Part shown: positions 2,806 to 7,355 of the stretch, piece after piece
Position numbering within the stretch: the first letter of the stretch is position 1
How the letters are laid out: each line of letters opens with the position of its first letter
Source: Gammaproteobacteria bacterium
GTDB lineage: Bacteria > Pseudomonadota > Gammaproteobacteria > Steroidobacterales > Steroidobacteraceae
Direction of reading: 5' to 3'
Assembly: GCA_947455595.1 (NCBI GenBank)
Contig: CANGOP010000001.1
Location: forward strand, 186,001-250,000
Length of the DNA stretch: 64,000 bases
Made by a program: the position numbers and the translations under genes
Notes under the pieces: model-generated
The model's database searches: none
What the model was told of the DNA's origin: nothing
Seen by the model: only the letters and a program-made list of their open reading frames with translations

Positions 2806-3720
2806 ATGATTAATCAGCGCACGCTCAAAAACATGGTCCGTGCCACCGGCGTGGGGCTGCATTCCGGTCGCAAGGTCTACATGACCTTGCGACCTGCTCC
2901 CGCCAATACGGGGATGGTGTTCCGCCGGACAGATCTGGATCCTCCCGTCGACTTGCCTGGCCGAGCCGATCTCGTCGGGGAGACGATGCTTGGAACAAAC
3001 ATCATCGTTGGGGATGTTCGAGTCTGCACTGTCGAGCACATGCTTTCCGCATTTGCTGGATTGGGCATTGATAATGCTTTTATTGAATTGAGCGCTCCAG
3101 AAGTGCCGATCATGGATGGTAGTGCGGCGCCATTCGTGTTCTTGTTGCAATCTGCTGGTATCGAGGAGCAGACGGCTCCCAAGCGTTTCGCTCGAATATT
3201 AAAAACAATTGAAGTTCGAGAAGGCGACAAATGGGCGCGATTCGATCCATTTGATGGTTTCAAAGTTAATTTTGAAATCGAATTTGATCATCCGATCTTT
3301 CGCAGACATTCACAGAAAGCGACGATGGATTTCTCGACGACCTCGTTCATGCGTGAAATCAGCAGAGCGCGTACGTTTGGTTTCATGCGGGATTTGGAAA
3401 AATTACGAGCCCACAATCTAGCGTTAGGTGGCACCCTGGATAACGCGATCGTGCTGGATGATTTCAAAATTCTGAATGAAGACGGGCTACGTTACGAAGA
3501 CGAGTTTGTTCGGCACAAGATTCTCGATGCTATTGGCGATCTCTACCTACTGGGTCGAACGCTGATTGGTGAGTTTAGTGGGTACAAGTCAGGCCATGGC
3601 CTGAACAACAAGTTGCTCAGAGCGTTGCTGGCCGACCAAACCGCTTGGGAAGAAGTCACCTTCCGCGACCGTCGAGACGCGCCGATCAGTTACGTCGCTG
3701 CCGCCGCGTTCGGCGGTTAA
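2806..3720 (+). CDS. lpxC: UDP-3-O-acyl-N-acetylglucosamine deacetylase LpxC
   Basis: Zinc deacetylase that carries out the first committed step of lipid A synthesis, removing the acetyl group from UDP-3-O-acyl-GlcNAc in the cytoplasm. The 304-residue length matches the family. The zinc ligands are visible as His78 (TVEHMLSA) and His237/Asp241 ([11 protein letters not shown]), matching E. coli H79/H238/D242, and the catalytic His lies in SGHGLNN. The 222 bases between ftsZ and lpxC probably hold its own promoter, as in other gammaproteobacteria. The stop overlaps the stop of the convergent dciA-like gene by about 3 bases. Confidence 0.97.
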
Positions 3721-4040
3721 GACCGGCCAGTTCCCCGGGGACGTACTTGGATTTTGCCGCGAGATGCGGCCGTGCCGGCATCGTTCAGAACTTTGGGCAG
3801 GATCTCTGGCAGGGCGTAGCGCAGCCTTGTGGCGTAGGCGCCGCTGTCCACAAGGATGGTGAGCACCCCGTCCGCGTCGAAGGATGCGGCATGCACCTTT
3901 CCCAAGAGTTCGGGTGGAAGAGCCGCCTCAACCTGCGTCAGCGTCGATCGGGCACGCTCAGCACCGGCCCTCAGTGCGCCTAATCGCTGACCGCCAATCT
4001 CGAGTAACGTGCTGATGGAAAAGGGTTTTTTTGAGGCCAT
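3717..4040 (-). CDS. dciA: DUF721 family protein (DciA-like helicase loader)
   Basis: Small 107-residue basic protein with the DUF721 core: a helical N-terminal part followed by a beta-rich stretch ([27 protein letters not shown]). In bacteria without DnaC or DnaI, DciA proteins of this family help load the replicative helicase DnaB. A DUF721 gene between lpxC and secA is usual in Xanthomonadales and Pseudomonas relatives. The start at MASKKP is chosen over an upstream in-frame Met that would add 18 residues without family support. It is convergent with lpxC and divergent from secA. The family assignment is firm; the DciA function is inferred. Confidence 0.75.
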
Positions 4041-4268
4041 TTGACTTAACGATGACGTGATTTCCGCGCTCGATTCTGCCAGAGCGCCGTCCAAGGGTAG
4101 GCCAAATCGAGCCGAAATCTAGCGGCCAGTTGGCCGTCCGACCTTGAGGTTACAGGCCCCAAGCCCCATTGAGCGACCTTGTGCGGGTAATGGCCATGCC
4201 AACTTAGTACAATAGCCGACTTTTACCCGGCACCCGTCCGTTCCGGCCGCCAGTAAGGATTTTGACCC

Positions 4269-7200
4269 GTGTTCAAGTTTCTGAAGTCGATCTTCGGTAG
4301 CCGCAACCAGCGCCTTCTGCGCCAGTACGGACGCCTGGTAATTGCCACCAATGCGCACGATGAGCAGATGCGCAGCTTGCCAGACGACGCCTTCCCGGGC
4401 CTTACGGCGTCGTTCAGAGAGCGTCTCGCAAAAGGTGAGACGCTCGACAGCATGCTCCCGGAAGCATTCGCGGCCGTCCGTGAAGCCGGGCGACGAACCC
4501 TTGGCATGCGTCACTTCGATGTCCAGCTGATCGGCGGCATTGCGCTCCATCAGGGAAAGATTTCCGAGATGCGCACTGGCGAAGGCAAGACGCTCGTCGC
4601 GACCTTGCCGACGTATTTGAATGCCTTGCCTGGGCTGGGCGCTCACGTCGTCACGGTGAACGACTACCTTGCAACCCGTGACGCGGAGTGGATGGGTCCC
4701 GTCTATCGATTCTTAGGTATGACCGTTGGCGTGATCCGCGCCGGTCAATCTCAGGACGAGAAGCGAGCAGCCTACGCCTGTGACATCACATACGGCACGA
4801 ATAACGAGTACGGGTTCGATTATCTGCGCGATAACCTTGCCTTCCGCCTGGAAGATCGCGTGCAGCGTTCGCTGCAATTCGCCATCGTCGACGAAGTCGA
4901 CTCGATCCTGATCGATGAGGCCAGAACGCCGCTCATCATCTCTGGTCCAGCCGATGAAAGCACCGAGCTGTATCTCAAGATCAATGCGCTTGTTCCGCGC
5001 CTAGCCCGCGCGACGAAGGAAGACGCCATCGAGGGTGCTGTCCGCGTACTGGCCGTTAATGGATCGACGTTCGCCGGATCTTTGAATCCTGACGATGTCC
5101 TGATCAGCGTAGCGGGAGCAGCGGTGACGAGCCCTGCTGACGTGAAAGCTGCACTGGCAGGCATGAAGTCAGCTGGGAAAGTGAAGTTCGAAATCTGGCG
5201 GGACGCTCGCAGCCAGACCGTCACGATTGAATTGCCGGGAGCAGCGGCAATCAGTGAACTGGATTTGGACACACTCGAAGACGACGCTCGCTACGACCTA
5301 CGGGTTGGCGGCGACTACTGGGTCGATGAGAAGCAGAAGCAGGTTCACCTGACCGAAGTTGGTCATGAGACGATCGAGCGAATTGTGAAAGAAGCCGGCC
5401 TCGTCCGTGAAGGCGGCAGTCTGTATGACTCAACGCATATCCGGATCATGCATCATCTGAATGCGGCTCTGCGGGCTCATGGTCTGTACCATAAGGACGT
5501 GGAATATATCGTCCGCAATGGCGAAGTCATCATTGTCGATGAGTTTACCGGTCGAACGATGCCGGGCCGCCGTTGGTCGGATGGGTTGCATCAAGCCGTT
5601 GAGGCGAAAGAGGGTGTCGAGGTTCGCGAAGAGAACCAAACGATCGCCTCGATCACCTTTCAAAACTTCTTCCGCATGTATCAAAAGCTGTCCGGCATGA
5701 CGGGTACGGCTGATACCGAAGCGTACGAGTTTCAGCAGATCTATGGTCTCGAAGTGGTGGTCATCCCCACGCACAGACCGATGCAGCGCAAAGACCGCTC
5801 GGATTTGGTCTACCTCACGCAGAAAGACAAGTTCGACGCCATCGTCGAAGATATTCGGGATTGCATCGGCCGACAGCAACCCGTACTGGTAGGTACGACG
5901 TCCATCGAAACGTCAGAGTTGCTGTCCAATGCGCTACGTGAGGAAGGTATTCCCCACGAGGTCCTAAACGCCAAGCAACATGAGCGCGAGGCACAGATCG
6001 TTGCTCAGGCAGGCCGTCCCGGCGCGGTGACGATTGCCACGAATATGGCCGGTCGTGGTACAGACATCGTTTTGGGAGGCAAGCCGGATGCGCTGGCCTC
6101 CGACGCGGACGGCGCCACGGTGGATGCTGCCAGTGCGGAATGGAAGCTGCGCCATGAGCAGGTGTTGACCTCCGGTGGCCTGCACATTATTGGTACTGAG
6201 CGACATGAATCACGTCGTATCGATAACCAGTTACGTGGACGCTCAGGTCGCCAAGGCGATCCGGGTTCATCGCGCTTCTATCTGTCGTTGGAAGACAATC
6301 TCATGCGGATCTTCGGCGATCCCGAGCGCATGAAGGCCCTTCTGTCTCGCGTCGGAATGAAGGCTGGCGAAGCGATTGAGAGCCCGCTGCTGTCTCGCCA
6401 GATTGAGCGAGCGCAGCGGAAAGTCGAAGCGTATAACTTCGATCTGCGCAAGAACCTTCTCGAATATGACGATGTTGCGAATGATCAGAGAAAGGTCATC
6501 TACGGGCATCGTAATGACCTGATGTCCTCTGAAGACATTGCGGACACCATTCGCGATCTGCGAAGGGACGTTATCGCGGGCTTGGTCGCTCAAGCGATGC
6601 CACCGGAAACCGTTGAGGAACACTGGAATCTCGAGGGTCTTCGAAATACCTTGGCTAAGGACTTTTCGGTTGGCTTCGATGCAAAGGCATGGATAGACGC
6701 CGATAAGTCACGCGGCGCGCGTGAAATGGAAGAGTTCCTGATTGGCGCCTTTGAGCGCGCGTATGCGGAAAAGGAAACAATGCTGGGTGCCGCTGAGCTG
6801 CGCCGTATTGAGCGAACTCTTCTGTTGCAGATGCTCGACACGCAGTGGCGCGAGCATCTGGCAGCGATGGACTACATGCGTCAGGGTATTTTCTTGCGTT
6901 CATATGCGCAGAAGAACCCCAAGCAGGAGTACAAGCGAGAAGCATTCGAGTTGTTCACTTCTATGCTGGACCGCATCAACTACGACGCAGTCTCGCTACT
7001 CGCCCGTATGCAGGTGCGCTCCGAAGCAGAAGTTGAGCGAGAGGAGTTAGAACGTCAGGCTCGTCTGGAACGGATGATGCAGTTCCAGCACGCTGAAGCG
7101 CCATCGATTGCCGGGGGTGTTCCGCCTGCTGAAGAGCCTGAGTCACCCGAACCCTCGGCGCCATTCCAGCGCGAGGTGCGCAAAATCGGGCGAAATGAGC

Positions 7201-7355
7201 CCTGCCCATGCGGATCCGGTCGTAAATTCAAGCAGTGCCACGGTGCCCTTCAATCGGAAGAATCGGATCCTTTTCCGACGGTAGGACGAAATGATCCCTG
7301 CCCATGTGGCTCGGGTCAGAAATTCAAACACTGCCACGGTGCTTTGAGCGAGTAA
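4269..7355 (+). CDS. secA: Preprotein translocase ATPase SecA with PDZ-like insert and duplicated zinc tail
   Basis: Motor ATPase of the Sec pathway that drives preproteins through SecYEG. The 1028-residue product is longer than the roughly 900 residues usual for SecA. Walker A (MRTGEGKT, about 101-108), the DEVD Walker B (208-211), the second RecA-like domain ([14 protein letters not shown]) and the helical scaffold ([14 protein letters not shown]-type motif) are intact. After [12 protein letters not shown] (about 252) an extra block of about 85 residues is inserted before [15 protein letters not shown]. It contains a PDZ-like core (about 256-323: [10 protein letters not shown], then [17 protein letters not shown], then a final strand pair). 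The C-terminus has two SEC-C zinc motifs: C979/C981/C990/H991 and C1011/C1013/C1022/H1023. Reading frame is continuous, so the insert is not an assembly artefact of frame. Confidence 0.97.

Follow-up and report, generated by a model that had tools for sequence, protein, structure and literature searches.

The window – the whole 64,000-nucleotide stretch of DNA analyzed here – encodes a SecA protein with an insert (Table 1). SecA is an essential and otherwise conservative protein-export motor. Consistent with the window protein being a complete SecA around its insert, we found matches above cut-off to the Pfam SecA DEAD, PPXD, second P-loop, and wing/scaffold domains and to two NCBIfam SecA equivalogs (1231.6 and 1097.7 bits). 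Together with the open frame, these matches bear out the initial annotation of this DNA, which held that the SecA frame and motifs are intact on either side of the insert. The genome is a MAG of 87.7% completeness, and searching it for SecA_DEAD returned one match above the cut-off and one below. Since the window protein is the sole match above the cut-off, it is most likely the housekeeping SecA of the genome.

Several other features of the locus were observed. The SecA C-terminus carries two tandem SEC-C motifs (window positions 7170-7352), an arrangement present in 8 of 21 SecA rows with the insert and in 3 of 45 without it (counts that include truncated rows and second copies). Between lpxC and secA, a 125-amino acid ORF lies on the minus strand (3717-4094), a putative DciA/DUF721-type gene. 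Outside the window, ~26 kb from secA, is an HtrA-type gene (G000:C1:163387-164337) with a match to TIGR02037 that extends up to position 334 of 434; in at least five relatives (G001, G002, G006, G010, and G011), secA has a similar HtrA-type gene on its contig.

Table 1. Coordinates of secA and of the parts of its insert (nucleotide positions in the window; residue numbers are those of the window SecA).
Feature	Position	Strand	Details and basis
secA	4269..7355	+	1028 aa, GTG start; open frame, Pfam and NCBIfam matches
Insert, probable circularly permuted DegP/MucD-type PDZ	5025..5309	+	Length relative to relatives, E. coli positions, PDZ_2, predicted fold
First insert strand, residues 258-263	5040..5057	+	DSSP of window model; aligns to the GALVSQV-type strand in DegP PDZ1
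Strand 277-281	5097..5111	+	D276-V277 (PDZ GDV motif) at its start, invariant in 21/21 inserts
Helix 289-297 (groove helix of PDZ)	5133..5159	+	DSSP of window model
Strands 304-311 and 314-321	5178..5231	+	W310-R311, invariant in 21/21 inserts
Short linker	5232..5258	+	Collinear with DegP PDZ1-PDZ2 linker; shortened in window's clade
Tail: strand 331-335, helix 338-343, then ..RVG	5259..5309	+	Corresponds to DegP PDZ2 start (LGLSLRPLTPAERR)
SecA sequence resumes	5310..5366	+	Alignment with E. coli SecA

To delimit the insert, we compared the window SecA with insert-free SecA proteins. The distance from the IISGP motif to just before VDEK is 129 amino acids in the window protein and 37 in insert-free SecA of the same genus (five rows, L025-L029), a net gain of ~92 residues at about residues 253-347. 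In an alignment with E. coli SecA, numbered by the 2vda/2fsf chains, the window protein is collinear up to position 246 and resumes at 253; 94 window residues stand between these positions, where E. coli has six. The insert site is within the preprotein cross-linking domain (PPXD), as the initial annotation had it. That annotation described ~85 extra residues at 5025-5280; its start and site hold, but the extent was underestimated, as the insert spans ~92 residues and 5280 falls within its C-terminal tail.

Homologous inserts occur in 21 SecA proteins (described below), and comparing them distinguishes constrained from variable positions. G270 and the two pairs marked in Table 1 are invariant, as is E251 at the insert border; these are fold positions rather than groove positions. 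W310-R311 is part of a WRDR or similar motif that is also present in a group of DegP proteins introduced below as paralog B. Within the tail, L336 (15 of 21 inserts), R341 (20), L344 (18), and V346 (17) are kept; the linker that precedes them is not. The glycine of the carboxylate-binding loop (GLGF/LGL type) is kept in 18 of the 21 inserts and is absent from the window insert and its two nearest relatives, a clade of three that has E, E, and D at this position in the ungapped register.

The initial annotation read the segment as a PDZ domain of the DegP type, and profile searches agree. Scanned alone, the window insert matched PF13180 PDZ_2 above its cut-off of 27 (30.3 bits, E 5.1e-7) and the DegP model TIGR02037 at E 3.1e-7 over model positions 267-329. 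Inside the whole window SecA, the PDZ_2 match scores 25.2 bits and is therefore missed by the curated rule. Eleven of the 21 known inserts were scanned alone, and PDZ_2 exceeded its cut-off in seven of them (the window insert, L006 with 35.9 bits, L008 with 37.9, L021 with 37.5, L023 with 36.1, L024 with 33, and L004 with 27.1) and fell short in four (L005 with 25.3, L007 with 23.8, L009 with 22, and L010 with 19.1). DegP-type NCBIfam matches in the window SecA are confined to residues 236-326, and a Pfam scan of the full protein identified no trypsin-like protease domain. Judged by these profile scores, the PDZ similarity of the insert is beyond chance.

Structure predictions point the same way. 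An AlphaFold2 model of the L006 insert (11 sequences) reached a mean pLDDT of 78.9 and a pTM of 0.72, with the tail strand predicted. Its best PDB matches in Foldseek are PDZ domains – MucP and RseP PDZ2, GRASP, and Nas2 – at E 1.9e-4 and weaker, with TM scores of 0.4-0.6 by query length; the HtrA PDZ 9pno appears at rank 50 (1.4 Å over 66 columns). The full-length window SecA model, built from a shallow set of 11 sequences, has a pTM of 0.29 and is usable locally for the insert only, where blocks 251-350 have a pLDDT of 78-90 (67 in the linker), the elements follow one another as in the L006 model, and residues 331-335 of the tail make a strand. Foldseek matches to this model began with 37 SecA chains, including an MBP-PPXD chimera, and three UvrB chains; PDZ chains follow at ranks 41-45, one of them 9pno (1.4 Å, 72 columns, E 0.025), and at rank 49, and we infer that the PDZ-chain matches fall on the insert. 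These models suggest that the insert has a PDZ fold.

The order of elements within this predicted fold is unusual. Bacterial PDZ domains place the carboxylate loop and first strand N-terminally; we did not find this order in the insert, where the corresponding segment is C-terminal. The initial annotation had noted that the usual first strand and carboxylate loop were not visible. This is correct for their normal N-terminal place but not as a statement that they are missing. Likewise, of its suggestion of a reduced or re-purposed PDZ, a domain that simply lacks its first strand is improbable, and re-purposing may hold for the window protein, whose clade is without the loop glycine. The insert ends (LGFTVQPLSEDKRQELAVGG in L006 and LGLAVRAATSEERDELGVGG in L008) resemble the start of DegP PDZ2, which reads KLGLSLRPLTPAERRAAGVDAG in a DegP of the same genus (L054), and the first-strand segment is clear in relatives' tails as LGFTVQPL. 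Consistent with continuity between the two parts, TIGR02037 matches run unbroken from model positions 258-273 to 357-360 in nine of 10 relatives' inserts and extend to 389 and 386 in the full SecA proteins of G007 and G011; in the L023 and window inserts, the match ends at 329, before PDZ2.

We next compared a profile of the 21 inserts with 39 DegP rows. Thirty of these rows were obtained via TIGR02037 and nine (L094-L102) came through the insert profile itself, so the set is biased and the following bit scores should be read accordingly: 19 rows aligned with nearly the whole profile (from 6-17 to 105-110 of 110 positions, 53-76 bits), and in the other 20 the match ended at 67-95 (22-36 bits). 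We refer to the former, which comprise 16 distinct proteins, as ‘paralog B’, a label of this analysis. The remaining DegP-type rows (‘paralog A’ and similar) were rejected as donor candidates because only their PDZ1 part was matched. Over the 16 distinct paralog-B proteins the tail adds a mean of 10.5 bits; 100 column-shuffled tails gave a mean of -0.6 bits and a maximum of 2.5.

Moving the tail to the front of the insert raised the score against a DegP PDZ2 profile (built from 15 of the 16 distinct paralog-B proteins, with L053 left out) by a mean of 11.3 bits, and the change was positive in all 21 inserts. Shuffled tails moved in the same way gave a mean of +0.31 bits, the largest of 200 means being 1.18. 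In 17 of the 21 inserts the gain exceeded all 200 of the insert's own shuffles; in the other four it was reached by 3 of 200 (window), 1 of 200 (L001), 3 of 200 (L002), and 9 of 200 (L007). The gain of the window insert is only 4.1 bits, and its tail is the least convincing of the tails; among the carriers, the window's clade shows the effect least clearly.

A structure of a DegP-like protein shows the same relationship. Searching the PDB with a profile of 14 inserts (A2), we found the best match to be 22kg, which its depositors call ‘probable periplasmic serine endoprotease DegP-like’ (E 9.5e-15, profile positions 14-107). The rest of the 22kg PDZ2 then matches profile positions 4-74 again, and the insert is therefore equivalent to a single period of a tandem of PDZ domains. 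These results support collinearity of the insert with one DegP/MucD-type tandem period that opens midway through PDZ1 and runs just into PDZ2. As the segment that is normally N-terminal lies at the C-terminal end, we describe the insert as a circularly permuted PDZ.

We then examined how widely the insert occurs. When the window insert was used to scan 84,980 species in a genome collection, a search that finds close relatives only, 10 loci were returned, all of them labeled as proteobacterial MAGs. Within the window's family, SecA with the insert is encoded by 21 of 217 genomes, distributed over four genera (9, 7, 3, and 2 genomes) – a lower bound, as some MAGs lack or break secA. The window's genus itself is mixed: of 15 genomes, the insert is present in 9 and absent from the SecA of 5, and in 1 (G012) a contig end interrupts the sequence. 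Broader samples were searched with a profile of the insert plus flanks at E 1e-20, a setting that would miss an unrelated PDZ in SecA. The order sample (396 genomes) gave 20 matches, all from the window's family (G007 is not among them and may not have been in the sample), and the class (369 genomes) and phylum (398 genomes) samples gave no match beyond the window's own genome. The insert is thus shared by relatives within the family and was found in none of the sampled genomes outside it. Other, unlike inserts of about 53-56 amino acids are present in the same PPXD loop in two genomes of the same order (L039 in G043 and L041 in G056), which marks the site as insertion-tolerant.

Phylogenetic analyses bear on how this distribution arose. 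The 21 inserts form one clade relative to 23 of the 39 DegP rows (support 100/99), and for this reason we favor a single origin of the insert. The SecA core tree was built from 55 of 68 rows, leaving out 13 that are either partial or second copies of the locus, the insert carrier L121 among them. Mapped on this tree, insert presence and absence require nine changes, at least six of which are forced by well supported branches, and a single clade of carriers is rejected (p-AU 2e-54). Despite that rejection, several independent insertions are not favored, given that the inserts are one clade relative to DegP. Like the core tree, the insert tree mostly unites sequences of the same genus, and this grouping does not favor wholesale lateral transfer between genera. 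The two trees disagree in places, as seen for L105/L107, and the core topology is rejected by the insert data (p-AU 0.014).

The sequences flanking the insertion site suggest how losses may have occurred. In insert-free members of the window's genus the flanks are like those of carriers (SEEAxDGDYW), a pattern that would fit loss by simple deletion. In two other carrier genera, the flanks of insert-free members are of the RQxEEDGPGDY type, which is also found in other genera and in L037 from another family; these would fit either replacement by recombination or an ancestor that was never invaded. The simplest account is that the insert was lost repeatedly, perhaps in part when insert-free alleles recombined in.

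Taken together, the intact SecA, the PDZ homology and predicted fold, the collinearity with DegP, the permuted order, the single clade of inserts, and their patchy presence support a reading to which we assign a probability of roughly 0.8: a DegP/MucD-derived, circularly permuted PDZ has been built into the PPXD of a housekeeping SecA. The donor would have been a gene for a periplasmic protease of the DegP/MucD type, and the donated piece would have covered the middle of PDZ1, the linker, and the start of PDZ2. Because such a piece is one repeat period of the tandem, it could close into a complete, order-shifted PDZ that ends, rather than begins, with the carboxylate-loop/ligand-strand segment. 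This order would place both domain ends close together, and the PDZ could therefore hang from a short PPXD loop.

The picture given by the initial annotation, a reduced PDZ in normal order without its first strand, draws on the weak tail of the window insert and on the normal-order PDZ_2 matches, which begin at profile position 10-29 of 80 in the 11 inserts scanned. We consider it quite improbable, as in relatives the absent element sits at the C-terminal end and raises the score when put in front, and the L006 and window models both form a strand from the tail. Slightly less improbable, though still a minor candidate, is a pair of partial PDZ domains in which the tail is a PDZ2 remnant that does not join the PDZ1 part: the tail does descend from a different domain than the first part, and its strand could pair with the SecA hairpin that follows. 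However, DSSP assigns the tail strand or bridge status in both models (local pLDDT 82-88), which needs a partner, and the four tail positions named above are kept when the linker before them is not. That the segment is an ordinary variable SecA loop or an assembly artefact has almost no probability left. Site length does vary within the order, but E. coli has only its six residues here, the class and phylum samples matched only the window's own genome, and a homologous insert common to 21 of 217 family genomes refutes an artefact.

Whether the insert has a role in SecA is a separate question. In 10 pairs, dN in the insert exceeds dN in the remainder of SecA by a factor of 2.8-5.3; not all of these pairs are independent, as several share species (for L013/L015, 0.244 in the insert and 0.072 in the rest). 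With the same overlap among pairs, insert omega is 0.14-0.70 and below 1 in all nine unsaturated pairs of the 10 tried, and omega for the rest of SecA is 0.02-0.19 in the eight of these nine in which the rest is unsaturated too. One reading is that a DegP fragment landed in an insertion-tolerant SecA loop, folds harmlessly, does nothing specific, and is being lost. The fast change of the insert fits this, as do the nine presence/absence changes on the core tree, the coexistence of carriers and insert-free SecA in the window's genus, the structural nature of the invariant positions, the absence of the loop glycine in the window's clade, and the unlike inserts at the same site in two genomes of the order. 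Omega values below 1, the open frame and fold residues kept across four genera, and the loop glycine kept in 18 of 21 inserts argue against it. We regard a tolerated passenger of this kind as a serious rival to any docking role and as quite plausible, though short of probable.

The functional alternative starts from the site of the insert. In two reviews, the PPXD is described as mobile and as closing, clamp-like, on the preprotein (PMC10465204; PMC4632601). A PDZ riding on this jaw could offer a peptide of the preprotein or of a Sec partner a docking site that is not essential, and the docked peptide would adjust handover or clamp movement. We offer this putative accessory peptide-docking site tentatively. 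The binding targets proposed by the initial annotation, namely preprotein ends, chaperones, or SecYEG-associated partners, are likewise putative. Classical C-terminus binding is unlikely in the window's clade because the loop glycine is missing there. More doubtful still is the fullest form of the proposal, that SecA reads a peptide signal of preproteins or a Sec partner on its substrate-gripping jaw via a putative permuted PDZ from a periplasmic quality-control protease. Insert-bearing and insert-free SecA within the same genus provide a ready comparison of clamp freedom and accessory peptide recognition in relation to export. The insert also appears to be a clean natural case of the birth of a permuted domain – one period of a tandem repeat cut out and inserted elsewhere.

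The initial annotation knew of no described SecA with a PDZ, and we found none among the papers listed by our literature searches, which left bioRxiv preprints and most subscription papers outside; the main text of a survey of microbial PDZ proteins does not contain ‘SecA’ (PMC6411480). The window protein resembles the general SecA of the E. coli/B. subtilis type in its SecA domains, its C-terminal SEC-C motif, and its place as the only SecA found in the genome, and differs from it in carrying ~92 extra residues, predicted to form a PDZ, after E. coli position 246 and before 253. With HtrA proteases of the DegP/DegQ/MucD type (PDZ1-linker-PDZ2), the insert shares WRDR and LxxRPLxxxER-type motifs and collinearity from mid-PDZ1 to the start of PDZ2. 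Unlike these proteases, it has no protease domain, resides in the cytosolic SecA, has a first loop and helix that by eye are shorter, and comprises one tandem period only, hence its permuted order. SecA of thermophiles is known to have large inserts in a surface loop that are specific to certain lineages (50 amino acids in Thermotogales/Aquificales, 76 amino acids in Thermales and H. schlegelii); these differ from the window insert in lying in NBD1, and no PDZ is named in them in the portion of the source available (PMC7023208). Bacterial PDZ domains have themselves been called circularly permuted relative to metazoan ones (PMC6411480). The insert is like such permuted PDZ folds, including GRASP, which is among the Foldseek matches of the L006 model, in its shifted element order, and unlike them in being shifted relative to the bacterial order itself and nested in another protein. 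Large SecA inserts were known already; what appears to be new is a SecA with a nested, predicted circularly permuted PDZ of the DegP type.
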